Origin: Parvibaculum lavamentivorans DS-1
GTDB taxonomy: Bacteria > Pseudomonadota > Alphaproteobacteria > Parvibaculales > Parvibaculaceae
Length of the DNA stretch: 64,000 nt
Direction: 5' to 3'
Assembly (NCBI RefSeq): GCF_000017565.1
Contig: NC_009719.1
Span: forward strand, 124,001-188,000
This document shows positions 4,691 through 22,547 of this stretch, piece by piece (the first letter of the stretch is position 1; each line of letters begins with the position of its first letter). The notes under the pieces are model-generated. The model had not been told where the DNA came from, searched no databases, and was given only the letters and a program-made list of their open reading frames with translations. The translations under genes were made by a program, and so were the position numbers.

Positions 4691-6109
4691 ATGAGCCAAG
4701 CCGCCAAAGCCGATACCCACGACTACGCCATCAAGGACATCAATCTCGCCGATTGGGGCCGCAAGGAGCTCGACATCGCCGAGACCGAAATGCCCGGCCT
4801 CATGGCGACGCGCGAGGAATACGGCGCGAAGAAGCCGCTCAAGGGCGCGCGCATCGCCGGCTCGCTCCACATGACGATCCAGACCGCCGTGCTGATCGAG
4901 ACGCTGGCCGAGCTGGGTGCCGACATTCGCTGGGCGTCCTGCAACATCTATTCGACGCAGGATCACGCCGCTGCCGCCATCGCCGCGCGCGGCATTCCCG
5001 TCTTCGCGATCAAGGGCGAGAGCCTTGAGGATTACTGGGAATACACCCACCGCATTTTCGAATGGTCGGATGGCGGTGCGCCCAACATGATCCTCGACGA
5101 TGGCGGCGACGCCACCCTCCTCATCCATCTCGGCAAGCGCGCGGAAGAGGGCGACGTCGCCTTCCTCGAAACGCCGGGCAATGAAGAAGAGGAAATCCTC
5201 TTCGCCGCGATCAAGCGCCGCCTGAAGCACAAGCCGGGCTTCTACAGCCAGATCGCGAAAAGCGTGCGCGGCGTCACCGAAGAAACGACGACCGGCGTCC
5301 ACCGTCTTTACGAAATGCAGAAGAAGGGCACGCTGCTCTGGCCCGCGATCAACGTCAATGACAGCGTCACGAAGTCGAAATTCGACAATCTCTATGGCTG
5401 CCGTGAATCGCTGGTGGACGGCATCCGCCGCGCCACCGACGTCATGATGTCGGGCAAGGTCGGCGTCGTCGCCGGCTTCGGCGATGTCGGCAAGGGCTCC
5501 GCCGCCTCGCTTCGTCAGGCGGGTTGCCGCGTCATCGTCACCGAGATCGATCCTATCTGCGCGCTCCAGGCCGCGATGGAAGGCTATGAAGTGACGACGA
5601 TGGACGATGCCGCGCCGCGCGGCGACATCTTCGTCACGACGACGGGCAATGTCGACGTCATCACCGTCGATCACATGCGGAAAATGAAGCACCGCGCCAT
5701 CGTCTGCAACATCGGTCACTTCGACAGCGAGATCCAGATCGGGGGCTTGCGCAATCTGAAGTGGCACAATGTGAAGCCGCAGGTCGACGAGATCGAATTC
5801 CAGGACGGCAAGCGCATCATCCTGCTCGCCGAAGGCCGCCTCGTGAATCTCGGCTGCGGCACCGGCCATCCGAGCTTCGTCATGTCCGCCTCCTTCACCA
5901 ATCAGACGCTCGCGCAGATCGAGCTCTGGACGAAGCCGGACGAGTACGAAAAGAAGGTCTACGTCCTGAAGAAGGAGCTCGACGAAAAGGTCGCGCGCCT
6001 GCATCTGGAAAAGATCGGCGTGAAGCTCGAAAAGCTGAACAAGAAGCAGGCCGACTATATCGGCGTCGCCGCCGAAGGCCCCTTCAAGCCGGATACCTAC
6101 CGCTACTGA
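4691..6109 (+). CDS. ahcY: S-adenosylhomocysteine hydrolase
   Basis: Cytosolic NAD-dependent adenosylhomocysteinase, 472 residues, the usual length for the bacterial enzyme with its extra internal segment. It cleaves S-adenosylhomocysteine to homocysteine and adenosine, so keeping methyltransferases active. Visible marks are the substrate region [19 protein letters not shown], the NAD-binding glycine loop [10 protein letters not shown], and the conserved C-terminus ending KPDTYRY. An AAGGAG lies about 9 bases before the ATG. The gene stands alone between its own promoter and a strong terminator. Regulation is probably by the palindrome at 4525-4544. Confidence 0.98.
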
Positions 6110-6137
6110 GCGGGGAGGCCCCTGCGTCAGAAGATCG

Positions 6138-6164
6138 AGCCCGGTGGAAACACCGGGCTTTTTC
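6138..6164 (+). terminator. Rho-independent terminator of ahcY
   Basis: AGCCCGGTG and CACCGGGCT pair perfectly over nine bases around a GAAA tetraloop and are followed by a T-rich run. It lies 29 bases after the ahcY stop. Confidence 0.92.
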
Positions 6165-6283: not shown

Positions 6284-8869
6284 ATGAAGGCGGCGACAAG
6301 CCGGAACTTGAGGGGTTTTCTGCGCGCCGGCGGTGCGGTGCCCGCCCTTCTGCTCGGCCTCGTGCCCGCCTCCGCCGCCGCCCAGCAGGGAGCCCCCCTC
6401 ACGGATGGCCTCGTTGAGACCCTCTCTGTCTTGGGCCTGCCCCCCGAAGCGGCCGGCGATCCGGCGCTCGCCGCCTTCTATGCCCTTGCCGCCGGTATCG
6501 CCTTTGCCGGCTCCCTCGCCGCCATCACGGGCCTGCGCGCCTCCCGCGCCGCGCGCCGCGTGGCCCTGGAGCGCGAAGCAAGCCTCGGCGTCCTTCAGGC
6601 TCGCCTCGATGCCGCCGAGGCGATCCTCGCCGCCGAGCCCGATGCCGTCTTCATCTGGACGCCGGAAACGCTCCGCGCCGCCCCCGGCACCTTCCAGGCC
6701 CGCCCCCGCATCGTCGGCTCGACGGCAACGCTGGTCGATCCTTCCTCGGGCGACCTCGATTTCAGCTACCTGCTGACGCGCCTCGAGCCTGAAAATGCCG
6801 GCCGCCTCAACACCGCCGTGCAGCGCCTGCGCACGCGCGGCGCCCGCTTCTCGCTCCACGTCCAGTCGACGGATGGCCGCACCTTCGAGGCCGAAGGCCG
6901 TCCCGCCGGCGCGCTCGCCGTTCTCTGGCTGCGCGACGTCACGGGCGAGCGCGCCGAGGTCTCGCGCCTGAAGGAACGTCTCCGCCAGGCGGAATTCGCC
7001 CGTGCCCGTTTCGAGGAACATATCGGTTCCGCGCCATTCCCCGCCTGGCGCCGTGGCGATGATGGCGCGCTGGTCTGGGTGAACGCCGCCTATGCCCGCG
7101 CGGTCGATGCCGCCTCGCCGGAGGATGCCGTCACGCGCGGCCTCGAACTCCTGAACGAGGAAACGCTCTCTTCTCTCCGCCGCGGTCTCTTCGATCGCTC
7201 CCGCGCCCGCGCGCGCAGCCACGCCATCATGGCGGGCGAGCGCCGCGCCCTCGATATCGTCGAGCAGCGTCTCGGCGATGGCGTCTCCGGCATCGCCATC
7301 GACGTCTCCGATCTCGATGCCGCCGAGGCCGAGCTTCGCCGTCACATCGAAAGCCACGCCGCCACGCTCGACCGCGTCACGACGGCGGTCGCGATCTGCG
7401 GCCCCGACAAGCGCCTCACCTTCCGCAACCGCGCCTTTGAAACGCTCTGGGGCCTCGATCCGCACTGGCTCGATGGCGGCCCCTCCGATGGCGAGATACT
7501 GGACGAGCTTCGCGCCCGCCGCCGCCTTCCCGAACAGGCGAATTTCCAGGCGTGGAAGCAGACGCGCATGGAAATCTACCGGTCGACGGATCCCGTCGAT
7601 GAATACTGGCACCTGCCCGATGGCCGCACGATCAAACTCCTCGCCCAGGCGCATCCCTTCGGCGGCGTCATCTATCTTTATGAAAACGTCACCGAGCGGC
7701 TCAATCTCGAAAGCAGCTACAACACGCTCGCCCGCGTCCAGCGCGAAACCATCGACCATCTCTATGAAGGCGTCGCCGTCTTCGGCTCCGATGGCCGCCT
7801 GAAACTCTACAACCCCGCCTATGCCAACATCTGGAACCTCGCGGACGAACAACTCTCCGGCGAGCCGCATGTGAACGAGCTGGTCGAGATGTGCCGTCCG
7901 CTCCTCGCCGACGAGGCCGAATGGGACACGTTGAAAAACGGCGTCACCAATATGTCGGGCATCCGCACCCAGATAACGGGCCGCCTCGACCGGCCGGATG
8001 GCACGGTGGTGGACTACGCGCAGGTGCCGCTGCCCGATGGCGCGACGCTGATGACCTATGTGGACGTGACGGATTCGACGCGCATGGAACAGGCGCTGCG
8101 TGACCGGAACGACGCGCTCGAAACGGCGGACCGGCTGAAATCCGAATTCATCAGCCACGTCTCCTACCAGCTCCGCACGCCGCTCACCAATATTCTCGGC
8201 TTCGGCGAAATCCTCGAAACCGAAATGTTCGGCCCGCTCTCGCCGCGCCAGCATGAATACATGCAAGGCATCCTGGAATCTTCCGAAACGCTGATCGACG
8301 TCGTGAACGACATTCTCGACCTCGCCGTCATAGAGGCGGGCGCCATGACGCTCGATCTCTCGGATGTCGAATTGTCGGAAGTGATCTATGCGACGGAGGA
8401 ATTCGCGCAGCGCCCGGCACAAAAGAACAAGGTCACGCTGAGGGTCGAGTGCCCGAAGGATATCGGCATCGTCCGCGCCGATGAAAAGCGCATCAAGCAG
8501 ATCATGATAAACCTGCTCTCGAATTCGCTCGCCTTCACGAGCCCCGGCGACACCATCGTCATCGGCGCCGCGCGCCGCGACAATTCGGTCGAGCTCTATG
8601 TCGAGGATACGGGCGACGGCATCAAGCCGGAATTCCAGTCCAACGTCTTCGACCGCTTCGAGGCCCACTCCTCATCCGACCGCCGCCGCGGCGCCGGCCT
8701 CGGCCTCTCGCTCGTGCGTTCCTTCGTGGAGCTGCATGGCGGCTGGGTAACGCTCGAAAGCGCCCCCGACGTCGGCACCCGCGTCACCTGCCACCTCCCC
8801 GTCCGCGCCGCCCCGCCGGCCGCCCAATCCTCGACATCGCCCGTGCCGACAAAGCTGGAAGTGGGATAG
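6284..8869 (+). CDS. divL: DivL-type PAS pseudo-histidine kinase with tyrosine in the H-box
   Basis: Protein of 861 residues from ATG 6284; an in-frame ATG at 6230 is less likely because the 6284 start opens a signal-anchor-like N-terminus. A second hydrophobic segment lies at about 65-85, then a long PAS-containing region, a HisKA domain and an HATPase domain. The H-box reads FISHVSYQLRTPLT: Tyr-628 stands where canonical kinases have the phospho-histidine, the hallmark of Caulobacter DivL. The N-box NLLSNSLAF and G-boxes (EDTGDGI, GLGLSLV) are intact, so ATP binding is likely. DivL controls the CckA-CtrA cell-cycle phosphorelay. In related genomes this gene precedes tsaE directly; here 14 kb intervene. 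Confidence 0.88.
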   Translation: MKAATSRNLRGFLRAGGAVPALLLGLVPASAAAQQGAPLTDGLVETLSVLGLPPEAAGDPALAAFYALAAGIAFAGSLAAITGLRASRAARRVALEREASLGVLQARLDAAEAILAAEPDAVFIWTPETLRAAPGTFQARPRIVGSTATLVDPSSGDLDFSYLLTRLEPENAGRLNTAVQRLRTRGARFSLHVQSTDGRTFEAEGRPAGALAVLWLRDVTGERAEVSRLKERLRQAEFARARFEEHIGSAPFPAWRRGDDGALVWVNAAYARAVDAASPEDAVTRGLELLNEETLSSLRRGLFDRSRARARSHAIMAGERRALDIVEQRLGDGVSGIAIDVSDLDAAEAELRRHIESHAATLDRVTTAVAICGPDKRLTFRNRAFETLWGLDPHWLDGGPSDGEILDELRARRRLPEQANFQAWKQTRMEIYRSTDPVDEYWHLPDGRTIKLLAQAHPFGGVIYLYENVTERLNLESSYNTLARVQRETIDHLYEGVAVFGSDGRLKLYNPAYANIWNLADEQLSGEPHVNELVEMCRPLLADEAEWDTLKNGVTNMSGIRTQITGRLDRPDGTVVDYAQVPLPDGATLMTYVDVTDSTRMEQALRDRNDALETADRLKSEFISHVSYQLRTPLTNILGFGEILETEMFGPLSPRQHEYMQGILESSETLIDVVNDILDLAVIEAGAMTLDLSDVELSEVIYATEEFAQRPAQKNKVTLRVECPKDIGIVRADEKRIKQIMINLLSNSLAFTSPGDTIVIGAARRDNSVELYVEDTGDGIKPEFQSNVFDRFEAHSSSDRRRGAGLGLSLVRSFVELHGGWVTLESAPDVGTRVTCHLPVRAAPPAAQSSTSPVPTKLEVG

Positions 8870-8886
8870 GAAATACTATCTGCCTG

Positions 8887-8902
8887 CAGATTATATAATC
8901 TG
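8887..8902. repeat. 16-bp perfect palindrome
   Basis: CAGATTATATAATCTG is a perfect palindrome, AT-rich against a GC-rich background, 18 bases after the divL stop. It abuts the next repeat. Its role is unknown; it could be a regulator site or part of the repeat. Confidence 0.4.
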
Positions 8903-8947
8903 TCATTGCCGGGCCCTCCTTTGAAATCAAGGAGGCCGGCAATCCAG
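8902..8947. repeat. REP-like palindrome (GTCA...CCA family), copy 1
   Basis: GTCATTGCCGG and CCGGCAATCCAG bracket an inner CCTCCTT/AAGGAGG stem. The frame GTCA, stem, CCA is shared with copies at 9026-9055 and 16600-16625. Downstream of divL it may also end transcription, though no T-run follows. Confidence 0.6.
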
Positions 8948-9025
8948 TAGGCGCGGAACGCGCCGTCTCTCTTCGCAAAATTCTTCGTTGCTACAGGCGC
9001 GCGTTGCGTGCCGTGCCTTCTCGCC

Positions 9026-9055
9026 CTGGACCCCCGGGTCAAGCCCGGGGGTGAC
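9026..9055. repeat. REP-like palindrome, copy 2 (inverted orientation)
   Basis: ACCCCCGGG/CCCGGGGGT stem; on the minus strand it reads GTCACCCCCGGG, a short loop, then CCCGGGGGTCCAGG. It lies just past the stop of the ribbon-helix-helix gene and matches the GTCA-stem-CCA plan of the copies at 8902 and 16600. Confidence 0.6.
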
Positions 9056-9087
9056 GAGTGTTTCATGCAGGAGCCGTCCTTCGCTGC

Positions 9088-9387
9088 CTACAGGAAAATC
9101 CTGTAAGGCACCGCCACGCCGTCCGGTCCCTTGACCTGGAATTCCGCGCCGCGATCCGCTTCCTGGATCAGCGCCTCGTAAAGCCTGAGCGCATTGCGGA
9201 TCACCTCCGCATAGGAGGCCGCCTCCGTCTTGTCCTTCAATTGCTGCAGCCGTTCCATCGCCTGTGGCGGCAGTTCGAGCTGCACGCGCGTCGTGTCGCG
9301 GTCGTTGGCTTCGCGCCGGTGCCTTCCGTGGCGTCTGCGCCGTCCGGGCGCGCAGGCATCGCCGGTTTCTTCCTCGCGCGCGCTCAT
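9088..9387 (-). CDS. Ribbon-helix-helix DNA-binding protein
   Basis: Small protein of 99 residues. A charged, disordered N-terminus (about 1-32) leads into TRVQLELPPQAMERLQQL, a beta strand and helix typical of MetJ/Arc ribbon-helix-helix proteins, then SYAEVIRNALRLYEALI as the second helix. The C-terminal segment VKGPDGVAVPYRIFL is an extra conserved-looking tail. The start is ATG 9387, overlapping the stop of the upstream membrane protein gene by ATGA, which implies translational coupling. It is likely a local transcription regulator, perhaps of its own operon. An antitoxin role is possible, but the partner does not look like a toxin. Confidence 0.75.
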   Translation of the reverse strand: MSAREEETGDACAPGRRRRHGRHRREANDRDTTRVQLELPPQAMERLQQLKDKTEAASYAEVIRNALRLYEALIQEADRGAEFQVKGPDGVAVPYRIFL

Positions 9388-9788
9388 GCCGCGTCCCTTC
9401 CGTCCCGGTCCCTGTAGTCCCAGTCCCTGTAGTTCCAGCTCCGCCGCGAGCGGGGCCCCCTCGCAAACAGGAAGAGCACCAGCACCACCGCAAGCACAGC
9501 CAGCGGATAGCTCGCCGCCGCCGAAACCAGCGCGACGAGAACCACCAGCGCCAGTGCGAATTTCACAGCCCCCGGCAGCCGCCATTCAGGCCCATGGCCA
9601 TGCCGCTCGCGGCCGCGCCATTCATGTTTCCATTCCGCCTTCCACTCGCGCCCCTGCCAATGCCCATGCATCTCGCAGCCGCTGCGCCGCTCGCGCTCGG
9701 AAAGCGGAAACTCCTCGCCCACTTCGACCCGGTAGCGCGTCGCGACGTTCTCCTTGCCCGTCTCAGTGCCGCTGTTTGTCTCGGTCAT
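9384..9788 (-). CDS. Charged small membrane protein of unknown function
   Basis: Protein of 134 residues that I do not recognise. Residues 1-70 are highly charged and rich in Trp, His, Arg and Glu (for example KAEWKHEWRGRERHGHG). One long hydrophobic stretch (about 73-106, AVKFALALVVLVALVSAA and on) could form one or two membrane helices, followed by a basic/aromatic tail with repeated WNYRDWDYRDRD. A good ribosome site (GGAGGACAG) precedes ATG 9788. It is coupled by a 4-bp overlap to the ribbon-helix-helix gene. The Trp/His-rich domain could bind metal or ligand at the membrane, but that is a guess. Confidence 0.6.
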   Translation of the reverse strand: MTETNSGTETGKENVATRYRVEVGEEFPLSERERRSGCEMHGHWQGREWKAEWKHEWRGRERHGHGPEWRLPGAVKFALALVVLVALVSAAASYPLAVLAVVLVLFLFARGPRSRRSWNYRDWDYRDRDGRDAA

Positions 9789-9956
9789 GTCCTGTCCTCC
9801 GGCTCCATACCCTTCCTGTTCTCATTTAATAATCAAAATATCATCATCATACAATCACAAAATACACGAAACAGCACCCGGCGCCGAAATCCCGAGGGAG
9901 TCCTTGGCCTTTCCCCGCGCAGCGGCGAGCCTAGATAGCTGGCAAAGGAGGCCCCC

Positions 9957-10691
9957 ATGCCGAAAAAACCTTATGAGCTCTTCTACTGGCCCGGCATTCC
10001 CGGCCGCGGCGAATATGTCCGCCTCGCGCTGGAGGAGGCGGGCGCGCCTTACGTCGATGTCGCGCGCGAGCGCGAGGGCGGCATGGAGGAGATGACGGCG
10101 CTGCTCGAAGGGGAGGGCACACAGCATCCCTCCTTCGCGCCGCCCTTCCTGCGCGACGGGCGCGTCGTCGTCGGCCAGGTCGCCGCGATCCTTTTTTATC
10201 TGGGCCCCCGTCTCGGCCTCGCGCCGAAGTCGGAAAGCGGCGCGCTGTGGACCCACCAGATCGAACTCACGATTTCCGATCTCGTCGCCGAGGCGCATGA
10301 CGTGCATCACCCCGTCGGCGTCGGCCTCTATTATGAGGACCAGAAGAAGGAAGCGCTCCGCCGCGCGGAAGAATTCCGCACCGCCCGCATCCCGAAATTT
10401 CTGGATTACTTTGAAAGCATTCTCGCCGCCAACGGCGCGACGGAAGCAAAGCCCCGCCTCGTCGGCAAATCGCTCACCTATGCCGACATCTCGCTCTTCC
10501 ACACGGTCGATGGGCTGAAATATGCCTTCCCCAAGGCAACGGGCCGGCTCCTGAAAAGCCGGCCCCTCGTCGCGTCATTGCACGAGACGGTGAAAAAACG
10601 CCCGCGCATAAAGGCCTATCTCGAAAGCGAAAGACGCCAGCCCTTCAACGAAAGCGACATCTTCCGCCACTACCCGGAGCTGGATAAGTAG
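9957..10691 (+). CDS. Glutathione S-transferase family protein
   Basis: Cytosolic GST of 244 residues. The N-terminal thioredoxin fold opens YELFYWPGIPGRGEYVRLAL, the arrangement seen in sigma/alpha-like GSTs where a Tyr near the start activates glutathione. VVGQVAAILFYLG corresponds to the glutathione-binding end of that domain. The all-helical C-terminal domain runs from about 90 and contains SLTYADISLFHTVDGL, the conserved N-capping box region. A strong ribosome site (AAAGGAGG) precedes ATG 9957. It stands alone, so its substrate is unknown; detoxification of electrophiles is the usual role. Confidence 0.88.
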   Translation: MPKKPYELFYWPGIPGRGEYVRLALEEAGAPYVDVAREREGGMEEMTALLEGEGTQHPSFAPPFLRDGRVVVGQVAAILFYLGPRLGLAPKSESGALWTHQIELTISDLVAEAHDVHHPVGVGLYYEDQKKEALRRAEEFRTARIPKFLDYFESILAANGATEAKPRLVGKSLTYADISLFHTVDGLKYAFPKATGRLLKSRPLVASLHETVKKRPRIKAYLESERRQPFNESDIFRHYPELDK

Positions 10692-10717
10692 CGGTCCGGA
10701 AACGGCCGGACAAATAT

Positions 10718-10781
10718 CTTCCCACCCGCCCCTGGGGGGCGGGTCGAAATTTGCTCTGCAAATTTCGGGGAGGGGGCGCGG
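10718..10781. repeat. Double-hairpin repeat, copy 1
   Basis: Stem 1 is ACCCGCCCC/GGGGCGGGT and stem 2 is GAAATTTGC/GCAAATTTC (9 perfect bp), followed by GGGGAGGGG. The same layout with different but still complementary stem 2 bases occurs at 11432-11495, on the other side of sodC. It may also serve as a terminator for the convergent GST and sodC genes. Confidence 0.65.
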
Positions 10782-10820
10782 CCTCGCGGCGCGGAATGCC
10801 GTCGCGTTTAAACCCCCTCC

Positions 10821-11360
10821 TCACTGCACCTTTTCGATCACCGCACAAGCAACCCGGTCGCCCGCGCCGCCGATCGGCTGGCTCATGTGATCGTCGGCAT
10901 TGGCGTGGATCACGATCGCCGCGCCGTCTTCATCGAGAAGATGCGCCCGGTCGTCGTCCTCGCCCGTCAGCGTCACCCGCTCGGAGAACATTTCCGCCTG
11001 GCCCGTGCCGTCTTCGGCCACATAGAGGTTCGGCAGGTCGCCATCATCCGGCCCCTCCGGGTTCAGCAGCCCGTGCGGCTCCTTCTCGCCATGCTGCACA
11101 TGCGCGCCCGACTTCTTGAAGCCCTCATCCGAGCAGTCGCCGGTCGCATGGAAATGGATGCCGTGCCAGCCGGGCGTGAGCCCTTCCACATTCACCCGCA
11201 TGAGTACGCCCTCGGGCCCCTCGGAGAGATCGGCCGTGCCGATATCGTCCTGCGCGCTGCTTTTGAATGTGGCCGTGGCAATCGGCGTGTCGGCGGCAAG
11301 GGCGGGCAGGGCGGCCAGCGAAAACACGGCCGCCAGCGCACCGAGACGAAAACCGGACAT
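10821..11360 (-). CDS. sodC: Periplasmic Cu,Zn superoxide dismutase
   Basis: Secreted Cu,Zn superoxide dismutase of 179 residues, with a signal peptide of about 23 residues ending ALAAD. Copper ligands appear in GWHGIHFHATGDC (His-69 and His-71), bridging and zinc ligands in GAHVQHGEKEPHG with Asp in PDDGDLPN, and the late copper ligand plus active-site Arg in VIHANADDHMSQPIGGAGDRVAC. The two cysteines for the structural disulfide (in GDC and VAC) are present. It would remove superoxide in the periplasm. The gene is monocistronic and flanked on both sides by the same structured repeat. Confidence 0.95.
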   Translation of the reverse strand: MSGFRLGALAAVFSLAALPALAADTPIATATFKSSAQDDIGTADLSEGPEGVLMRVNVEGLTPGWHGIHFHATGDCSDEGFKKSGAHVQHGEKEPHGLLNPEGPDDGDLPNLYVAEDGTGQAEMFSERVTLTGEDDDRAHLLDEDGAAIVIHANADDHMSQPIGGAGDRVACAVIEKVQ

Positions 11361-11431
11361 GGGAAACCTCCTTCTTGAGAAAAACTTCTGACCAGAACCT
11401 AGAGCAAAAGTTCAGACAGAAAAGCCGCCCC

Positions 11432-11495
11432 CTTCCCACCCTCCCCCTGAGGGAGGGTCAAACCGCTGCAAGCGGTTTGGGGAGGGGTCGCGGCG
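11432..11495. repeat. Double-hairpin repeat, copy 2
   Basis: Stem 1 is ACCCTCCC/GGGAGGGT and stem 2 is CAAACCGCT/AGCGGTTTG (9 perfect bp), followed by GGGGAGGGG. The outer sequence matches copy 1 closely while stem 2 has diverged with pairing kept. The remaining gap up to 11656 holds no gene I can support. Confidence 0.65.
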
Positions 11496-11656
11496 CGGCC
11501 TAAACGAACGCGCCCGCGATTGAACATCCCGGAGTCCCGTTCACGAAGCCGTGAGTCCCCAAATGCGTACTGGCGACTGACTGACCGAAATGTTATTTTT
11601 GGTCATTCTACAGGCCAAACGCCCCGCCCGGGGCGAACCCCAGGGAGGCACGCCCA

Positions 11657-12124
11657 ATGGCCATTACCCTCAAAGTCAACGGCACCGCGCATACGCTCGA
11701 TATCGAGCCCGAAATGCCGCTCCTCTGGGCGCTGCGCGACGAGCTCGGCCTCACCGGCACCAAGTTCGGCTGCGGTGTCGCCGCCTGCGGCGCCTGCACG
11801 GTCTATGTCGATGGCGTCGCCACCCGCACCTGCGTCACGCCGGTCGAGGCCGTGGACGGCGCCGAGATCGTGACCATCGAGGGCCTCGCCGCCACATCCG
11901 GCGCGGCGGAAGGCATGCTCGCCCCCGTCCAGCAGGCCTGGATCGACGCCCAGGTCCCCCAATGCGGCTATTGCCAGTCCGGCATGCTGATGGCCGTCTC
12001 CGCGCTTCTGGCGGAAAACCCTCAGCCCACGGATGAAGACATCGACGCGGCGATCACCAATGTCTGCCGCTGCGGCACCTACCCGCGCGTCCGCGCCGCC
12101 ATCCGTTCCGTCACCGCAGCCTGA
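11657..12124 (+). CDS. [2Fe-2S] subunit of a molybdenum hydroxylase (IorA/CoxS type)
   Basis: Iron-sulfur subunit of 155 residues of the xanthine oxidase family, closest in layout to isoquinoline 1-oxidoreductase alpha subunit. The plant-type cluster motif KFGCGVAACGACTVY gives Cys-39, -44 and -47 with Cys-59 following; the second cluster is held by QCGYCQSGM and NVCRCGTY. It passes electrons from the molybdopterin subunit encoded 13 bp downstream. A GGGAGG ribosome site precedes ATG 11657. No FAD subunit gene is present, as in two-subunit enzymes that give electrons to cytochrome c or another carrier. Confidence 0.93.
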   Translation: MAITLKVNGTAHTLDIEPEMPLLWALRDELGLTGTKFGCGVAACGACTVYVDGVATRTCVTPVEAVDGAEIVTIEGLAATSGAAEGMLAPVQQAWIDAQVPQCGYCQSGMLMAVSALLAENPQPTDEDIDAAITNVCRCGTYPRVRAAIRSVTAA

Positions 12125-12137
12125 GGGAGAGAGCATC

Positions 12138-14402
12138 ATGGCCATGGAATTCAAAAAGCCCTCGCGCCGCCAGTTCCTCATCGGCGGCAGCGTCGGCGTC
12201 GCGGTGGGCGGCGGTCTCCTTCTCGGCTATGCCGTCTCCGGCCCCTCGCGCCGCGAGCTCGCTGAAGGCGCGGCGGCCGAAGGCGGCGAACGCTTCGTCA
12301 CCACCTGGCTGAAAATTTCGCCGGACAATGTCGTCACCGTCTATGTCCCCCATTCCGACATGGGGCAGGGCACCATCACCGCGCTCGCCATGATGGCGGC
12401 GGAGGAAATGGAAGCCGACTGGTCGCTCGTCCGCGCCGAACAGGCCCCCGCCGAAAAAGCCTTCGCCAATGAGGCGCTCGGCAATCGCTTCCTCGCCGGC
12501 GAAGACGTGCCGCCCATGCTGAAGGGCTTGAACGCCGCCGCATGGACCAAGGTTGCGCAGTTCATGAACATGCAGATCACCGGCGGCTCCATGGCGGTCC
12601 GCTACACCGGCCATCACGGCATGCGCGTCACCGGCGCCGCCGCCAAGGACATGCTGGTCAAGGCCGCCGCCACCCGCTGGGGCGTCTCGCCGTCGGATTG
12701 CGTGGCCGCGCTCAGCATCGTCACGGGCCCGAACGGCCAGTCCGCCACCTATGGCGAACTCGCTGCCGATGCCGCCGAATATGCGCCCTCCGCCGCGCCG
12801 GTCCTGAAATCGAAAAAGGACTACACAATCGTCGGCACGGCCCGCCCCCGCTTCGACATTCCGGGCAAGGTCAACGGCACCGCCAAATACGGCATCGACG
12901 CCGAAGTCCCCGGCATGCTCTATGCCGCGCCGAAACTCGCCCCCGTCTTCGGCTCCACCGTTGTCTCTTACGATGCGAGCGAAATTCTCTCCCGCCGAGG
13001 CGTGAAACAGGTCGTCGAGTTTCCGGGCGGCGTCGCCGTCATCGCGGATAATTACTGGCGCGCCAAGGAAGCCGCCGCCGCGCTCGACGTCACCTTCGAC
13101 ACCAAGGGCGGCGAGACCGTCTCGTCGGAATCGATCTTCGCCGGCCACGACGCCGCCATCGCCACGGGCGAGAGCGAGGAAGACAAGGTGATCGGCGACG
13201 CCGCCTCCGCCTTCGCCGCCCAGGGCGCCGACATCGTCGAAGCCTCCTACCGCGTGCCCTATCTCGCCCATGCCTGCATGGAGCCGATGAACTGCACCGT
13301 CTGGATCCGCGACGGCAAGGCCGATGTCTGGGTCGGCGTGCAGGACGCCCTCGGCACCCGCGCCCGCGTCGCCGATATTTCCGGCATCGACTTCGACAAC
13401 GTGAAAGTCCATCCGATGCTGCTCGGCGGCGGTTTTGGCCGCCGCATCCCGATCCGCGAAGGCTTCTTCAATTTCCCGAGCGAGATCGACTTCGCCACCA
13501 TCGTCGCCAAGGAAGTCGGCGCCCCGGTGAAATTCATCTATACGCGCGAAGACGACATCCAGCACGATGCCTACCGCATCGCCTCAAGCTCGCGCCTCCG
13601 CGTCGCGCTTGACGGCAAGGGTCTGCCCACCGCCTGGGAAAACATCTATGTCCACAAGGACGAGCCCGGCGAAGCCCCGCACATCCCCTACGCGATCCCC
13701 AACCAGTCGATCCGCTTCGTCGAAGTCGAAAACCACGTGCCGCGCGGCCCGTGGCGCTCCGTCGCGCATACGCAGCACACCTTCTTCAACGAAAGCTTCA
13801 TCGACGAGCTCGCCCACCGCGCCGGCGCCGACCCATATGAATATCGCCGCGCGCTCCTCGAAGGCCAGCCGCGTCATCAGGCCGTTCTCGATCTCGCCGC
13901 GCAGAAAGCCGGCTGGGGCAAGCCCCTCGCCGAAGGCCGCTTCCACGGCATCGCCGTCCAGCAGAGCTTCGGCTCCATCGTCGCCGAAGTCGCCGAGATT
14001 TCCGTGACGGACGGCGCCGTCCGCGTCCACCGCGTCACCGCCGCCGTCGATTGCGGCGAGGTCATCCATCCGGACACCGCCGCCCAGCAGGTCGAAAGCG
14101 GCATCATCTACGGCCTCACCGCCGCCCTCTACGGCGAAATCGCTATCGAAGGCGGCGCCGTCGCGCAGACGAACTTCACCGACTACGAAATGCTCCACCT
14201 CTCGGAGACGCCGGTGATCGACGTCCACTTCATCGAAAGCGGCGCCCCCATCGGCGGCCTCGGCGAACCGGCAACCCCCGTCGTCTCCGCCGCCGTCGGG
14301 AACGGCGTCTACGCGGCAACAGGCAAACGCATCCGCCAGCTCCCCCTGAAAAACCACGACCTCACCCCCACCCCCGGCAAACTCGCTCAGGCCGCCGATT
14401 AG
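12138..14402 (+). CDS. Tat-exported molybdopterin subunit of an aldehyde/N-heterocycle oxidoreductase (IorB type)
   Basis: Large subunit of 754 residues of a xanthine-dehydrogenase-family hydroxylase. It opens with a twin-arginine signal (SRRQFLIGG followed by a hydrophobic stretch), so the folded holoenzyme is probably carried to the periplasm with its small partner. Molybdopterin-binding segments include GGGFGRRI and the C-terminal GGLGEPATP, whose Glu is the family catalytic base. The start is ATG 12138, chosen for the Tat signal. It could oxidise aldehydes or hydroxylate N-heterocycles with water; the substrate is not predictable. No molybdenum cofactor maturation gene accompanies it. Confidence 0.92.
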   Translation: MAMEFKKPSRRQFLIGGSVGVAVGGGLLLGYAVSGPSRRELAEGAAAEGGERFVTTWLKISPDNVVTVYVPHSDMGQGTITALAMMAAEEMEADWSLVRAEQAPAEKAFANEALGNRFLAGEDVPPMLKGLNAAAWTKVAQFMNMQITGGSMAVRYTGHHGMRVTGAAAKDMLVKAAATRWGVSPSDCVAALSIVTGPNGQSATYGELAADAAEYAPSAAPVLKSKKDYTIVGTARPRFDIPGKVNGTAKYGIDAEVPGMLYAAPKLAPVFGSTVVSYDASEILSRRGVKQVVEFPGGVAVIADNYWRAKEAAAALDVTFDTKGGETVSSESIFAGHDAAIATGESEEDKVIGDAASAFAAQGADIVEASYRVPYLAHACMEPMNCTVWIRDGKADVWVGVQDALGTRARVADISGIDFDNVKVHPMLLGGGFGRRIPIREGFFNFPSEIDFATIVAKEVGAPVKFIYTREDDIQHDAYRIASSSRLRVALDGKGLPTAWENIYVHKDEPGEAPHIPYAIPNQSIRFVEVENHVPRGPWRSVAHTQHTFFNESFIDELAHRAGADPYEYRRALLEGQPRHQAVLDLAAQKAGWGKPLAEGRFHGIAVQQSFGSIVAEVAEISVTDGAVRVHRVTAAVDCGEVIHPDTAAQQVESGIIYGLTAALYGEIAIEGGAVAQTNFTDYEMLHLSETPVIDVHFIESGAPIGGLGEPATPVVSAAVGNGVYAATGKRIRQLPLKNHDLTPTPGKLAQAAD

Positions 14403-14420
14403 CGGAAGTCACGCCTCTAC

Positions 14421-14444
14421 TCCCTCTCCCCTCGGGGAGAGGGA
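14421..14444. repeat. GC-rich hairpin after the molybdenum hydroxylase genes
   Basis: TCCCTCTCCCC pairs over 11 bases with GGGGAGAGGGA around a 2-base loop, 18 bases after the stop at 14402. No T-run follows, so factor-independent termination is doubtful. It resembles stem 1 of the double-hairpin repeats at 10718 and 11432. Confidence 0.5.
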
Positions 14445-14460
14445 AGGAGCGCCCGGCTGT

Positions 14461-14745
14461 TCACCGGACTCTCTCCTTCTCCCTGGGTGCCGAAACGCGC
14501 CGGGGCTTGGCTTCCATTTTGGGTTTGGGCAGGAGACGGAAGCGGCTCTGGCACCAGGCGAAATCGATGCCTACATCGAGCAGCGCATCGGAACGCCCGC
14601 ATGGGCAGGCAAATTCCAGGACGGCGAGAACGCAGTAGGTCTCTCCGGCCTGCAGAGGCACCGGCCTGCCCGTCACATGGTTCGGGGCGGCATTGACGCA
14701 AAGAACAAGATCGCCGGGTCCGATGGCGTCGCTCATGGCTTCCAT
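14461..14745 (-). CDS. Small conserved-type hypothetical protein
   Basis: Protein of 94 residues from ATG 14745, with AGGA six bases upstream; an internal ATG at 14736 gives 91. It begins near SDAIGPGDLVLCVNAA, then LQAGETYCVLAVLEFACPCG and VGIDFAWCQSRFRLL. This plan (a GDLVVCV opening, a turn before a Y-x-V-x strand, a Cys pair, then a C-terminal RF motif) recurs, from memory, in short alphaproteobacterial and phage-linked proteins of unknown role. The C-terminal 20 residues are basic and may be extension into repeat DNA. No function can be given. Confidence 0.5.
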   Translation of the reverse strand: MEAMSDAIGPGDLVLCVNAAPNHVTGRPVPLQAGETYCVLAVLEFACPCGRSDALLDVGIDFAWCQSRFRLLPKPKMEAKPRRVSAPREKERVR

Positions 14746-14848
14746 CCATTGTCCTGCGAGGAGATTAGACTTCGCCCCGCAAGGTGAAAAGATCGCTTTT
14801 GGCCATTCCGGGCAGCGGTAGGCCGTCGCACCGGCAACAGGGCGCCCC

Positions 14849-14893
14849 AAAATAAAAGCCCGCTCCTCGATCCGAGGAAGCGGGCCTTCTTTT
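14849..14893. terminator. Bidirectional terminator after the ferredoxin gene
   Basis: GCCCGCT...AGCGGGC with an inner CCTCG/CGAGG pairing (14858-14885) is flanked by an A-rich run on the left and a T-run on the right, so it can end transcription from either side. It lies just past the ferredoxin stop (14911, minus strand). Confidence 0.85.
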
Positions 14894-14910
14894 TGCCGCG
14901 TGAGAAAAAT

Positions 14911-15231
14911 CTAGTGCTGGCTTTCCGGCATCTGCAGCCGGATCCCGTCCAGCTCGTCGCTCGCCACAAGCTGGCAGGAAAGCCGCGAGTTCGCTTCCGT
15001 GTGTTCGCAGAAGTCGAGCATCGTCTCTTCCATCGTCTCGACTTCCGGCAGCTTCGGCTTCCATTCGTCGGGCACATAGACCATGCAGGTGGCGCAAGCG
15101 CAGGCGCCGCCGCAATCGCCGTCGATGCCGGGAATGCTCGCCTTCACCGCCGCTTCCATCAGCGTGATGCCGTTCGCCACCTCGATCGTGTGCTCGGTGC
15201 CGTCATGTTCGATATAGGTAATCTTCGCCAT
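14911..15231 (-). CDS. [2Fe-2S] ferredoxin, adrenodoxin/putidaredoxin type
   Basis: Ferredoxin of 106 residues with the vertebrate/P450-type ligand spacing C-x5-C-x2-C-x36-C at Cys-40, Cys-46, Cys-49 and Cys-86. Its acidic loop [13 protein letters not shown] is the surface that docks reductase and P450 in putidaredoxin and adrenodoxin. It lies 64 bp downstream of a matching FAD-dependent ferredoxin reductase, in the same direction, so the two form an NADH-to-ferredoxin electron chain. The oxygenase they feed, usually a cytochrome P450, is not in this window. The family also includes Isc-type ferredoxins, but the reductase neighbour favours the P450 role. Confidence 0.92.
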
Positions 15232-15295
15232 CTCTCCGAAACGCCTCCACGTATTTATGTTTGTCTCTTCTTGTCCTTGTCGTGCCGCCTGAAAT

Positions 15296-16516
15296 TCAGC
15301 CGGCCAGTTCCTTCACGCCCACGCCCTCATCGCGAATGCGCGCCGGGTCGAGCCGCGCCTGATTCGCCGTCAGCATTTTCGACATCATGAATTCCGGCGC
15401 GCGGTTGATCGCGTCGACCGCCACCAGCACGCCGTCTTTCAGATAGAACACCGCGAAGCTCCGCCCCGTCTCCGGGTCGCCGCGCACCACCGCCTCGGTA
15501 TAGCCGGCGGAAAGCCCCACGATCTGCAATTTAAGGTCGTACTGGTCCGACCAGAACCACGGCACCTGGTTGTAGGGCTTCTCCTTGCCGGTCAGCGTCG
15601 CCGCCGCCGTCTTGCCCTGCTCGATGGCGTTGTGAACGCTTTCAAGCCGCAGCCTGTGGCCGTAAACCCCGTTCGGATGGCTGGTGCAGTCGCCCGCCGC
15701 GCAGATGTCGGGGTCGCTCGTCCGGCAGTGCTCGTCCACCGCGATGCCGTTCTCGACCGTCAGCCCCGCTTCCGCTGCAAGCTCCGTGTTCGGAATAATG
15801 CCGATGCCGACAACGACGAAGTCGCAAGGAAAGCGCCGCCCCTCGCCCGAGGCAACCGACGTCACCTTGTCCTCGCCCTCGAAGCTCGCCACCGTCACGC
15901 CGGTTTCGATCTTCACGCCCTCTTCCCGGTGCACGCGTTCATAAAAGCGCGAAACGATCGGGTCCACCACGCGCGCCATCACGCGGTCCGCCGTCTCGAG
16001 CACGGTCACGTCGAGCCCGCGCTTCACGGCGACAGCCGCAACCTCGAGCCCGATATAGCCGCCGCCGACAACGACCATCTTCGCGCCCGGCTTGAAATGC
16101 GCCTGAATGGATTTCACATCGTCTATATTGCGCAGGTAGTGAACGCCGTCGAGGTCGAAGCCCGGCACGTTGAGCTCGCGCACCCGGCTTCCCGTCGCGA
16201 TCAGCAGCTTGCCATAGTCGAAGCTCCGCCCGTCGCCGGTGAGAATGCGCTTCTCGCGCCGGTCGATTTCCGTCACGCGCGTGCCCCAATGCGTTTCCAC
16301 GCCCGCACCCGCATAAAAATCCTGCGCCTTCAGCTCCACGCGGTCGAAGCCGATCTCGCCGGAGAGAAATTTCTTGCTCAGCGGTGGCCGCTGATAGGGC
16401 GCATAGGGTTCGTCGCCGAAAATACGGATCGCGCCGTCGAAGCCTTCCGCGCGCAAGCTCTGCACAGCCTGCGCCGCCGCCTGTCCCGCCCCGATAATCA
16501 GAATGTCGTCCGCCAT
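15296..16516 (-). CDS. FAD-dependent ferredoxin reductase (putidaredoxin reductase type)
   Basis: Reductase of 406 residues from ATG 16516, preceded by GGGAGG. It has the FAD-binding loop [15 protein letters not shown] near residue 7, the opening pattern [15 protein letters not shown] typical of CamA, BphA4 and rubredoxin reductases, a second Rossmann loop [13 protein letters not shown] for NADH at about 150, and [11 protein letters not shown] for the flavin. The C-terminal domain contains [15 protein letters not shown]. It transfers electrons from NADH to the 2Fe-2S ferredoxin encoded just downstream. The 64-bp gap suggests one transcript. Confidence 0.94.
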
Positions 16517-16599
16517 ATGCCTCCCGTCGCCCCGCTCTTCTCGTTGTTTCTTCCGTTCACGGATGACCTTCGGCACGGAAGGCCCGATACAAAAACGGT

Positions 16600-16625
16600 G
16601 TCACCCCGGCGAAAGCCGGGGCCCA
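16600..16625. repeat. REP-like palindrome, copy 3
   Basis: GTCA, then CCCCGGC-gaaa-GCCGGGG, then CCCA. The plan matches the copies at 8902 and 9026. It lies about 85 bp upstream of the ferredoxin reductase start. Confidence 0.6.
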
Positions 16626-17055
16626 TGGGCCTCACCGCATCCCGAAGCCCGGGCGGGCGGCTCCCCGTCGCCGGAACATACCCTTATTTTTTGCGGAGTT
16701 TTACTACGCGGTGGGGTTATTGTCCCCTCTTTTCAGGGTCTTGCCGGCAATCTGCCGCGCAGCCGGCAGGCCGCGCGCCGGTCCCTACCTCGCCAAAAAA
16801 TGACGCCTGCGTCAACTTTAATCTGAGGTGTCAGCTGCAATTATAGGTGTCGTCGACCGAGTCCGCACTGCAACATTGGATAAGAAATATCCGCGAGGGG
16901 AAGATTATTCTCACGGCGGCGCCGCAGCTTTGTTAAGCTAGCCTTTACATGAGGTGCCGCAGTAAGGGAGAGGCTGCGACGATTAGGTCTAAGAGAACGA
17001 GCTAAAGTTCTCCAGACACCGTCAGCTGCATGCCGCCGCATACTGCAAATGGATC
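16626..17055. other. Non-coding stretch of lower GC
   Basis: I see no convincing gene in these 430 bases. The composition is visibly more AT-rich than the flanks, with several short A/T runs and no consistent codon pattern. It may be the remnant of an older insertion that also brought the small HTH gene to its right. Confidence 0.4.
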
Positions 17056-17083
17056 AAAAAAGACGGGAGCAAAAGCCCCCGCC
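17056..17083 (-). terminator. Terminator of the small HTH gene
   Basis: Read on the minus strand, GGCGGGGGC and GCTCCCGTC pair over nine positions (two G-U) around TTTT, then six Ts follow. It is 20 bases past the HTH gene stop, which supports that short gene being real. Confidence 0.75.
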
Positions 17084-17103
17084 CAATATTGAGAAATAGT
17101 CTT

Positions 17104-17289
17104 CTAGCTGAGGATCATCGCCGGAGGGATGCCGGGGAATCGCTTCCCAGTCATCACTTCAGAAACCCGGCCCTGATTGATCCCAAACCGGGCTGCGGCT
17201 TGGTGTTGCATGAAGCCTTCTTCGGTGACCAACCACTTAATGGTCGCCGCCATTTCCCGCGTAAGAGGCGGGGAGTGTCGTTTAGCCAT
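17104..17289 (-). CDS. Small helix-turn-helix protein
   Basis: Protein of 61 residues, almost all of it one HTH: LTREMAATIKWLVTEEGFMQHQAAARFGINQGRVSEVMTGKRF across about 9-51, where QHQAAARFGINQGRVSEV is the helix-turn-helix. Similar tiny proteins are common beside prophage or plasmid remnants in alphaproteobacteria. A GGAG lies 8 bases before ATG 17289 and a terminator follows the stop, so it looks expressed as a single gene. It is probably a DNA-binding regulator; its target may be one of the inverted repeats upstream. The surrounding DNA is AT-richer than either flank, which suggests transfer. Confidence 0.7.
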   Translation of the reverse strand: MAKRHSPPLTREMAATIKWLVTEEGFMQHQAAARFGINQGRVSEVMTGKRFPGIPPAMILS

Positions 17290-17319
17290 TTGTCATCTCC
17301 ATGGCATTTGGTTACGAAT

Positions 17320-17362
17320 GCGGCTCACAGGGTTCCGACCAAGGAATAGCCCTGTGAGCCGC
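17320..17362. repeat. 13-bp inverted repeat upstream of the HTH gene
   Basis: GCGGCTCACAGGG and CCCTGTGAGCCGC pair perfectly across a 17-base loop, 31 bases upstream of the HTH start and followed by AT-rich DNA. It could be an operator, an attenuator in the HTH leader, or the mark of a past insertion. Confidence 0.55.
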
Positions 17363-17428
17363 AAATATATTATGACCATTACGCGGCGTTAACCAGCGAG
17401 TCTGTTCTCAATTTGTGCTGATTCTGTG

Positions 17429-17487
17429 CTAGCAGATGAAATGACTGCTAGGGCGGTCACATATGCACGTTCCGGGGTGCATATGTG
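17429..17487. repeat. Two tandem inverted repeats
   Basis: CTAGCAG/CTGCTAG (17429-17435 and 17445-17451) is followed 6 bases later by CACATATGCAC/GTGCATATGTG (17458-17468 and 17477-17487, 11 perfect bp, 8-base loop). They lie about 90 bp downstream of the FAH-family gene stop, with no T-run. They resemble protein-binding palindromes more than terminators. Confidence 0.55.
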
Positions 17488-17575
17488 CTCGATTTCGGCA
17501 CTCGATGTTCTTGCTGCTCAGGCAGTCAATCTCAGAGCGACTGAAAAGAGACGCTGCGTGTCAGCGTGATTCGCC

Positions 17576-18709
17576 TCACTCCACAATCCGGCTGTCGATC
17601 TCGCCGAGATAGCGCACCGCGATCTGCACCCGCTCTCCCGGCTTCAGATAGTCGCCCGAGGCCTTCTCCTGCGCGATATGCCGCTCCACCACATGGGCGG
17701 TGATCGGCCGGTCCCAGCCCCCTGCCACGAAGTCCCAGAGCCCCAGCGCCATGGCCGATTTGTTGACGCCGCGAAAGACGGTCCCGTCCGGTGTCCCGGC
17801 GAGAATGGCGGTCCGCGCCGGTATCCTGCCCCCCGGCGCCGGCAGGCCCACCTCCCGCCCTTGATACGTCCAGGTCACGCCCTCGCGCGCCTTCGTCTGC
17901 CGCAGCAGCTCATCGAAATCCCATATCGCTTCCGATTGCGTCGCCGCCTGCTTCAGCTCGCCATTCCGCCACAGCCGCAATTCGGCGGCCTCCGCGAAGG
18001 GGCGCAGCTCGCGCGGAATGACGAAGAGGTTCCCCACCGGCAGAAAGCCCGGCGCGCTCTTCCCCGTCGTGAAGCCCTTGCCGGAAGTGACGTCGGAGGG
18101 ATCGACATTGCGCATCAGCGCCGCCCGGTCCGTCACATCGTTGCAGAGCATCAACCCCATGCGCTCCGGCGCCGTGCCGTCCAGCGCCCCGTTTAGGTCG
18201 ACAGGCGAAAGCGCCACGAAGCAAAGCTCCACTTCATAGTCGAGCAGCGCCTCCCCGGCAGGCACCGGCGCGTTGAAACCCGTCGGCTCGACCTCTTTGG
18301 GAAAGAGGAAAGGCCCGTCCGTCACCGCCGACTCTTCCGCATGTTCGGGAAAATTCGTCCCCACGGCGATATGCGACGCGGTGAGCCGCGCCGGCAACGC
18401 CAGCCGCTCCACCGGCATCCGTTCGCTCGTCCCAGCCGCCAGCGCCGCAATCGCGTCATAGCCGTGTCGCCCATAGGCGTCTATCGGATCATCCGCCCCC
18501 AGCGCCGCCGTCACGTCAACGCCGCTCACCACGCCCCCTTCATAGGAAGAGACGAGCAGCAGCCGGTAGTGTCCGTCTTCCTCCACCCGCGCGAAGGTTA
18601 GCGCCTCCGCCACCGGCGCGATTTCCACCGTGCCGAACCCCTCGGCCTGTGCGGCCGTCGAACCGAGCAGCGTCATGACGAAAACGCCTGCGCGAAAAGA
18701 AAATCCCAT
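17576..18709 (-). CDS. Fumarylacetoacetate-hydrolase-family protein with a signal peptide
   Basis: Protein of 377 residues. Residues 1-22 (FRAGVFVMTLLGSTAAQA) form a clear signal peptide, odd for this family, which is normally cytoplasmic. The catalytic domain follows: GTNFPEHAEES, the metal-binding LLDYEVELCFVALSP (acidic ligands), GLMLCNDVTDRAAL and GKGFTTGKSAPGFLPVG, then GTPDGTVFRGVNKS near the C-terminus. These fit C-C bond hydrolases, decarboxylases or hydratases acting on keto-acids. It is the last gene of a tight operon with a membrane protein, an SDR and a flavin monooxygenase. Export would place this step in the periplasm, apart from its cytoplasmic partners. Confidence 0.82.
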   Translation of the reverse strand: MGFSFRAGVFVMTLLGSTAAQAEGFGTVEIAPVAEALTFARVEEDGHYRLLLVSSYEGGVVSGVDVTAALGADDPIDAYGRHGYDAIAALAAGTSERMPVERLALPARLTASHIAVGTNFPEHAEESAVTDGPFLFPKEVEPTGFNAPVPAGEALLDYEVELCFVALSPVDLNGALDGTAPERMGLMLCNDVTDRAALMRNVDPSDVTSGKGFTTGKSAPGFLPVGNLFVIPRELRPFAEAAELRLWRNGELKQAATQSEAIWDFDELLRQTKAREGVTWTYQGREVGLPAPGGRIPARTAILAGTPDGTVFRGVNKSAMALGLWDFVAGGWDRPITAHVVERHIAQEKASGDYLKPGERVQIAVRYLGEIDSRIVE

Positions 18710-18719
18710 TGCCCCATCC

Positions 18720-19169
18720 TCAGTTCACCAGCAGCCAGACGCCGATCGTATTGACGATCATCAGGATTGTCCCGCCGAAGAGGTTCGTGTCGACGAGATA
18801 GACGGTCCCGAAAATATTGAAGCGGAACGGTTTGATGCCGTTCGTGTCTTTCAGCGCCCCGCCATAGATCGGCATGGTGGCCAGCGTCGCATAGAAGCTC
18901 GCGCCCCAGACGTAGTTGAGAATCGCCGCCACCCAGATATGCGTGAGGTAGTCCGCCGCCGGGCTCCACAACAGGTAGAGAATGACGAGCGAAATGCCCG
19001 TCTGGCTCAGCACCTGCCACACCACATGAAACCGCGCATGCGGCGTCCATAGCGGGTTCGTCGCATGGGTCTTGTTGAAATCGGCGAAAATGGGCCCGGC
19101 GCTGATCATGAAGGCAACCAGCGAAAAGAGAAGACGCGGCAGAAGAAGCTCGTCGTAAAGCGTTTCCAT
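18720..19169 (-). CDS. Four-helix integral membrane protein, unknown function
   Basis: Protein of 149 residues from ATG 19169, with about four hydrophobic helices (near 10-28, 48-67, 75-95 and 122-147). The conserved-looking cytoplasmic or periplasmic loop DFNKTHATNPLWTPHARFH between helices 1 and 2 carries His residues that could bind metal or ligand. I do not recognise a named family with certainty. It sits 10 bp from both neighbours in the monooxygenase-SDR-FAH operon, so it is probably the transport or membrane-anchoring element of that pathway. Confidence 0.7.
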   Translation of the reverse strand: METLYDELLLPRLLFSLVAFMISAGPIFADFNKTHATNPLWTPHARFHVVWQVLSQTGISLVILYLLWSPAADYLTHIWVAAILNYVWGASFYATLATMPIYGGALKDTNGIKPFRFNIFGTVYLVDTNLFGGTILMIVNTIGVWLLVN

Positions 19170-19179
19170 TTCTATCTCC

Positions 19180-19959
19180 TCAGATGAGGCCGGGGTAGGA
19201 GCCCCCGTCCAGTTGCAGGTTCTGCCCGGAAATGAAGCCCGCCTGGGCGCTGCAGAGAAAGGCGCAGGCATCGCCGAATTCGGAAGGTTGTCCCATGCGC
19301 TTGGCGGCAATCGACTGGGCGATTTCCGCGCGCGCTTCCTCATAGGTGATTTTCTTGAACTGCATGGCGAGCTTCGCCATCTGCTGCTGCCGGTCCGTGT
19401 CGAAGCGTTCGGGCAGCATGTTGTTGATCGTCACGTTGAAGGGCGCGGCGTCGACGGAAAGCGCCTTCGAAATCGCGGTAAGGCCGGAGCGCGCCGTCGT
19501 CGAAAGCCCCATGGCCGAGCGCGGCGCCTTCACCATCGCGGAAGTGATGTTGACGATCCGCCCGAAGCGCCGCTCCTTCATGCCCTCGATCAGCGCCTTG
19601 ATCATGAAGACGGGTGCGAGCAGGTTCGCGTTGAGCGCCGCCTGCCATTGGGCCTCGTCCCATTGCTGAAAGGCGCCGGGCGGCGGCCCGTCATTATTGT
19701 TCACGAGAATGTCGGCCTCCGGGCAGGCGGCAACGAGCCGCGCCCGGCCTTCCTCGGTGTTGATGTCGGCGGCAATCGGCGTCACCGATCCCTTGGCCGA
19801 GGCGGCAATCTCATGCGCCGCAAGGTCCAGCACCTCCGCGTTCCGCCCGTTGATGACGACATCGGCGCCCTCGCGTGCCAGCGCCATGGCGCAGGCCTTG
19901 CCGAGCCCGCGCGACGAAGCGCAGATAATCGCCTTCCGTCCCTGCAATCCGAGATCCAT
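19180..19959 (-). CDS. SDR-family protein lacking the YxxxK catalytic pair
   Basis: Protein of 259 residues from ATG 19959 with a Rossmann fold of the short-chain dehydrogenase family. The nucleotide loop is CASSRGLGKACAMAL, and ADINT, ILVNNNDGPPPG and the late GQNLQLDGG are in place. At the active site, where YxxxK is expected after the serine of NITSAMV, the sequence reads GLSTTARSGLT: Leu replaces Tyr and Ala replaces Lys. A divergent FabG-like subgroup with this change exists, from memory. It may bind nucleotide without classical reduction, or use another mechanism. It lies 19 bp after the monooxygenase gene. Confidence 0.85.
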   Translation of the reverse strand: MDLGLQGRKAIICASSRGLGKACAMALAREGADVVINGRNAEVLDLAAHEIAASAKGSVTPIAADINTEEGRARLVAACPEADILVNNNDGPPPGAFQQWDEAQWQAALNANLLAPVFMIKALIEGMKERRFGRIVNITSAMVKAPRSAMGLSTTARSGLTAISKALSVDAAPFNVTINNMLPERFDTDRQQQMAKLAMQFKKITYEEARAEIAQSIAAKRMGQPSEFGDACAFLCSAQAGFISGQNLQLDGGSYPGLI

Positions 19960-19978
19960 CAGCCGTTCCCTCTGCTCT

Positions 19979-21649: not shown

Positions 21650-21664
21650 GCGCGCGCCTCATAA

Positions 21665-21697
21665 ATGAGAGTAGTCTCATATTTGAGATACCCCTCA
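21665..21697. promoter_or_regulatory. Operator array between the monooxygenase and TetR genes
   Basis: Half-sites TGAGA (21666), TCTCA (21675), TGAGA (21684) and CTCA (21694) alternate in orientation at steps of about nine bases, making three overlapping dyads such as ATGAGA-gtag-TCTCAT. The location in the 90-bp divergent gap suggests binding of the adjacent TetR protein controlling both directions. Confidence 0.6.
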
Positions 21698-21740
21698 TAA
21701 ATGACTTTTGTCAACCCGCGAGGCGCTGTATCCTCGTTTC

Positions 21741-22355: not shown

Positions 22356-22430
22356 AAACTCACTCATTACGGTAAATATAAGCGGGGATAGGCCGAAGCG
22401 CCGAAGCACCGTTCCGTCCCTAAAAAGCCT

Positions 22431-22463
22431 CTGTGACGGTTCAGTGACAGTTCGATGACGGTC
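22431..22463. promoter_or_regulatory. Three 11-bp direct repeats (OmpR/PhoB-type box)
   Basis: Units CTGTGACGGTT, CAGTGACAGTT and CGATGACGGTC follow each other head to tail with an 11-base period. Read on the minus strand they are CCGTCAT, CTGTCAC and CCGTCAC with 4-base spacers, which is the spacing and near-consensus of Pho boxes. The array ends 84 bases upstream of the AhpD-like gene. Confidence 0.55.
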
Positions 22464-22547
22464 GCGGGAAAAACCCGCTTATCCCCGGTCACAAATCCTC
22501 CCCTGGCCTCGTCTTCTCTGTGAAAACCCAGTGCCAAGGAGGCCCGA

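Follow-up and report, generated by a model that had tools for sequence, protein, structure and literature searches.

The window, a stretch of 64,000 nucleotides from Parvibaculum lavamentivorans DS-1, carries on its forward strand a divL gene (6284–8869 including the stop codon; open reading frame 6284–8866) that encodes an 861-residue orthologue of the DivL protein of Caulobacter crescentus. The ATG at 6284 is kept at the matching position in several Parvibaculum relatives, and an upstream ATG at 6230, which would extend the protein to 879 residues, was rejected as the start because it is absent from these relatives. According to Pfam, the protein consists of PAS domains followed by a DHp domain and a CA domain: PAS_8 covers residues 362–416 (7367–7531), PAS_7, which adjoins the DHp domain, residues 490–603 (7751–8092), HisKA (DHp), with two long helices in the predicted model, residues 619–686 (8138–8341), and HATPase_c (CA) residues 733–841 (8480–8806). 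A hydrophobic stretch at about residues 60–82 (6461–6529), detected in a hydropathy scan, probably anchors the protein in the membrane. The codon TAC at 8165–8167 encodes Tyr628, which lies within FISHVSYQLRTPL in the in-frame translation and occupies the position of the H-box phospho-histidine (Tyr550 in Caulobacter), while the following codon, CAG (8168–8170), encodes Gln629 at a site where most HisKA kinases have Glu or Asp.

Directly upstream of divL, on the same strand, lies ahcY (4691–6109), which encodes S-adenosylhomocysteine hydrolase (TIGR00936, 609.7 bits; cut-off, 497.6). The same arrangement was found in 95 of 151 related loci, and several of the 56 loci without an ahcY call have little or no upstream sequence; the conserved ahcY–divL(–tsaE) neighbourhood is recognizable in the window by its adjacent ahcY. 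A terminator-like hairpin with a 10-pair stem on the forward strand between the two genes (6137–6160) is suggestive of separate transcription of ahcY and divL, the number of such hairpins being two, compared with 1.8 expected in shuffled sequence. Neither a CtrA box (TTAA-N7-TTAA, at most one mismatch) nor a sigma-70 promoter was found near divL, and the sole CtrA-box match in the window lies at 16933, with 2.35 expected by chance. The tsaE gene (23089–23583; PF02367) is situated 14.2 kb downstream of divL; among the 95 loci in which it was found, it is within 1.5 kb of divL in 80, and in seven loci of near relatives it is 4.4–5.1 kb away. The intervening segment (8869–23089) is filled by unrelated genes encoding a GST-like protein, a Cu/Zn SOD, a molybdopterin oxidase and an FAD monooxygenase, so that the older ahcY–divL–tsaE block has been opened in this lineage. 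Further downstream, Pfam domains identify an APH-family kinase and a nucleotidyltransferase, followed by PD-(D/E)XK and UvrD-type proteins (23550–31870), an order that we take to be AmgK-MurU-AddB-AddA. Upstream of ahcY–divL, a sensor kinase with Stimulus_sens_1 and Sensor_TM1 domains (320–2167) is presumably of the ChvG/BvrS type.

The assignment to DivL is supported by both sequence and fold. The first PDB match to the protein is Caulobacter DivL (4q20, E 1.9e-58), which places Tyr628 on the Tyr of 4q20, and the second is 7z8n (E 4.1e-33). A structure model of residues 596–840, built from a 34-row alignment (mean pLDDT 82.5, with values below 50 in the lid, model residues 198–208), also has 4q20 as its top Foldseek match (E 8.7e-23, TM 0.74 on the query, 42 % identity). 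The closest named relatives are Parvibaculum records with 72–93 % protein identity. NCBIfam families matching the protein up to E 0.001 number 77; no DivL-named model is present among the 25 matches listed, and none of the listed kinase models reaches its cut-off, the best being PnpS with 176.5 of 400. The DHp and CA folds resemble those of ordinary HisKA sensor kinases (DivJ, PleC and PnpS types), which, however, carry His where the window DivL has Tyr. An earlier note, made from the sequence alone, had described a DivL-type kinase with Tyr in place of the H-box His, the same substitution as at Caulobacter Tyr-550, and this description is borne out: no other residue pairs with the His of the kinases aligned, and the best match is DivL rather than an ordinary kinase. 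The observation is sound, though ordinary and already known: the H-box substitution is a published hallmark of DivL, which makes the finding of Tyr628 less special.

Comparison with the other kinases of the genome (a single contig of 3,914,745 bases) shows how the catalytic region differs from that of ordinary kinases. In a tally of 19 rows, corresponding to 18 distinct kinases since L017 repeats the L007 kinase, and leaving out 18 weaker kinase matches, the H-box position is occupied by His in 18/18 and the following residue is Glu or Asp in 18/18. The window protein has Tyr628–Gln629 in place of the acceptor His and acidic neighbour that characterize an active HisKA kinase. The earlier note had also regarded the ATP-binding boxes as intact, which holds for the seven core residues that were scored (N743, N747, D775, G777, G779, G805 and G807) but not for the N-box Lys, which is replaced by Ala750. 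Thus, besides the acceptor, two residues usual in active kinases, those at Gln629 and Ala750, are changed as well. Both changes distinguish the window protein from Caulobacter DivL, in which the Tyr is followed by Glu and the N-box Lys is present. Among the 146 DivL orthologues surveyed, the position following the H-box site holds Glu in 100, Gln in 37, Asp in four and another residue in five, while the N-box Lys is kept in 73.

This survey covered 289 genomes of the class, with three candidates scored per genome; 160 had a DivL match at E 1e-60 and 129 had none at this threshold. A total of 149 loci were examined from the 160 matching genomes, eleven genomes with weaker matches being left out, and 146 loci (74 family codes) remained after omission of L236, L246 and L247, the alignments of which stop at or short of the H-box region. 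Also left out were L041 and L044, from genomes less than 90 % complete, the latter with Cys at the acceptor site, as well as further DivL-like matches that occur in a few genomes (e.g. G073). The acceptor residue is Tyr in 125 of the 146 orthologues, His in seven, Phe in four and Thr in three, with single occurrences of Gly, Val, Arg, Ser, Gln and Lys. In the one remaining orthologue (L064, genome G280), the H-box codon itself is a stop, although the DivL frame otherwise runs its full length; this may be a true break, a case of recoding or an error of assembly. The site is therefore mostly Tyr across the class, yet not fixed. For comparison, the accessible part of a study of Caulobacter DivL describes Tyr550 as conserved in DivL throughout the class except in Magnetospirillum magneticum, which has Ala (PMC4211667).

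The Tyr codon could in principle reflect a recent loss-of-function or sequencing change in an ordinary histidine kinase, given that a single transition converts a His codon to a Tyr codon. This explanation is refuted by the conservation of the residue and may be given practically no credence: Tyr is present in 51/51 loci of Parvibaculum and its nearest relatives (TAT in 42, TAC in nine), as well as in the 125 orthologues across the class, where both Tyr codons are likewise used (TAC in 74, TAT in 51). Another set of 51 loci, almost the same as that of the near relatives, reduces to 35 distinct sequences.

A second possibility, also raised in the earlier note, is that Tyr628 is itself phosphorylated, with the CA domain transferring the phosphate of ATP to it. 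Caulobacter DivL is said to have been proposed as such a tyrosine autokinase in earlier work, and in the window protein the ATP site still has its core N, G1 and G2 residues. Nevertheless, phosphotyrosine is disfavoured by the presence of Gln after the H-box site and of Ala for the N-box Lys. Moreover, 20 of the 146 orthologues have another residue at the acceptor position (Phe, Val, Thr, Gly, Arg, Ser, Gln, Lys or His) and one has a stop codon, so DivL does not in general depend on a Tyr that can be phosphorylated. Since the accessible text on Caulobacter DivL additionally reports no autokinase activity in vitro (PMC4211667), tyrosine phosphorylation in the window protein seems highly improbable.

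The retention of the core ATP residues, which would be unneeded in a pure docking protein, counts against a role in docking alone. In a third reading, the CA domain would still bind ATP, without catalysis, as a ligand that adjusts the shape of DivL. The window protein retains all seven core residues, as do 85 of the 116 Tyr-bearing DivL proteins from genomes that have DivK, whereas 19 of these 116 retain five or fewer (alignments that ended early leave some core-residue columns empty in 4/146 rows). Caulobacter DivL with the Y550H substitution gained a DivK~P-stimulated autokinase activity with ATP, so the ATP site of that protein can work; on the other hand, according to the same partly accessible source, the wild-type protein binds TNP-ATP weakly (57 µM), its crystals contained no nucleotide and the CA domain is said to be dispensable (PMC4211667). 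A ligand role for ATP in the window DivL is on balance unlikely, though it deserves more weight than autophosphorylation.

The residues involved in DivK docking are well preserved. R553, T557 and A601 of Caulobacter DivL are identical in the window protein (Arg631, Thr635 and Ala681), and the position of Y562 is taken by Phe640, the residue being aromatic in 132 of the 146 orthologues, so that all four docking positions have a suitable counterpart. Phe640, together with Tyr659 and Asn675, which differ from Caulobacter H579 and D595, is common in the class. The Arg equivalent to R553, the replacement of which by Ala is reported to disrupt DivK~P binding in Caulobacter (PMC4211667), is present in the window and in 128/128 surveyed genomes with DivK, compared with 9/18 of those without. 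A DivK match at E 1e-30, a cut-off that admits some matches of about 50 % identity, was found in 147 of the 289 genomes. DivK is present in 116 of the 125 genomes with a Tyr-bearing DivL, as opposed to 12 of the 21 others (Fisher p 1e-4, ignoring kinship), a comparison that yields only three independent pairs when kinship is controlled.

The same genome encodes the proteins with which DivL cooperates in Caulobacter. The gene for DivK (PDB match 1m5t, E 1.2e-63) lies directly before pleD (NF007135, 665.7; cut-off, 474), and the gene for CtrA (NF045991, 425.9; cut-off, 350) adjoins that for ChpT (PF10090, 124.7; cut-off, 22.9). CckA, the presence of which the earlier note had proposed to check, is clearly matched by PDB entries (5idj, E 4e-70; 5idm, E 4.6e-40), with NCBIfam scores of 914.4 and 564.7, both under the cut-off of 1000. 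No clear assignment of PleC or DivJ could be made with NCBIfam among the kinases of the genome, the best score being 275.7 of 1000 for the DivJ model.

Since DivK, CckA, ChpT and CtrA are all encoded, a Caulobacter-like circuit is the best reading of the locus. In the accessible portions of the studies concerned, Caulobacter DivL shows neither kinase nor phosphatase activity and binds DivK~P through its DHp helices, with the help of the PAS domains, while free DivL activates CckA (PMC4211667, PMC5361649). The window DivL is very probably a PAS protein, presumably anchored in the membrane, that has lost its phospho-acceptor and acts as a sensor on which DivK~P docks. In a circuit like that of Caulobacter, DivL in its free state would hold the hybrid kinase CckA in kinase mode, leading to the phosphorylation of ChpT and then CtrA. 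Docking of DivK~P on the DHp helices beside Tyr628 and Arg631 would bend these helices and, through the PAS domains of DivL, turn CckA towards phosphatase activity. The binding of DivK~P, the contact with CckA and the lack of catalysis are thus presumed for the window protein from its Caulobacter counterpart. The CckA-ChpT-CtrA/DivK cell-cycle module, including its pseudokinase sensor, would thereby be placed in Parvibaculum, a genus for which no paper also dealing with DivL was found, and hence no published experiment in this species.

Overall, the window protein agrees with Caulobacter DivL (4q20; PMC4211667) in best match, H-box Tyr, PAS-DHp-CA order, docking residues and the partners encoded in the genome, and is longer (861 residues, compared with 769, the end residue of the constructs described in the accessible part of PMC4211667). 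With its putative membrane anchor, it also corresponds to the available description of Sinorhizobium meliloti DivL as an atypical, transmembrane histidine kinase with two PAS domains, HisKA and HATPase_c, which acts with CckA and the gene of which is indicated to be essential (PMC11500502). With the short DivL proteins reported as common in Rhodobacterales, the window protein shares the family and the PAS part; unlike them, it keeps the DHp and CA domains, and its genome has DivK, whereas the short forms, as far as the accessible texts describe them, have no histidine kinase domains and occur without DivK (PMC2877005, PMC9430884).

The part of the survey most worth following concerns the seven orthologues with His at the acceptor site (L138, L200, L204, L206, L210, L215 and L219). 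Four of these (L138, L200, L204 and L206) combine the His with an acidic neighbour and 7/7 core ATP residues. L215 has 6/7 core residues and no DivK match in its genome, while L210 and L219 adjoin ahcY and have a degraded ATP site (1/7 core residues). The combination in L210 and L219 is the opposite of that in the window DivL. An upstream ahcY was found for L200, L204, L206, L210 and L219. Six of the seven genomes, including those of L138, L200, L204 and L206, were searched in full, and no second DivL was found in these six, since in each a single match of 427–590 bits stands apart from the rest (at most 182 bits). The sole detected DivL of four genomes thus carries His and an intact core, which suggests that DivL may not be a pseudokinase everywhere.

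In phylogenetic trees, DivL as a whole splits from ordinary kinases with a support of 100/100. The His label requires four changes on the best trees, of which well-supported branches force only two, and grouping the His rows with ordinary kinases gave AU test p values of 0.065 (four rows) and 0.033 (six rows). L215 groups with two Tyr rows in a single clade that is well supported. In the other His rows, the residue may have been either regained or retained. Judged from sequence, it is conceivable, albeit somewhat doubtful, that in families f35 and f80 the only detected DivL is a live DivK kinase/phosphatase, its His regained or never lost. If so, the His and Tyr forms of this regulator that occur in nature would reveal the role of the Tyr in the window DivL. 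His-bearing DivL proteins were not mentioned in the literature searched, which excluded most subscription papers. Those with an intact core would provide natural test material for the question of why Caulobacter Y550H DivL, which reportedly binds DivK~P normally, harms growth (PMC4211667).

Several further orthologues depart from the usual pattern. L243, L244, L233, L237, L239 and L223 carry Gln, Lys, Thr or Arg in the acceptor position and have decayed ATP boxes. Their genomes lack a DivK match, which gives the impression that the kinase module erodes once DivK is lost. In L246 and L247, the DivL matches end near residues 605–633 (frames of about 600 amino acids), and their genomes have a DivK match, which runs against the rule, stated in the accessible part of PMC2877005, that kinase-less DivL always goes with the absence of DivK.
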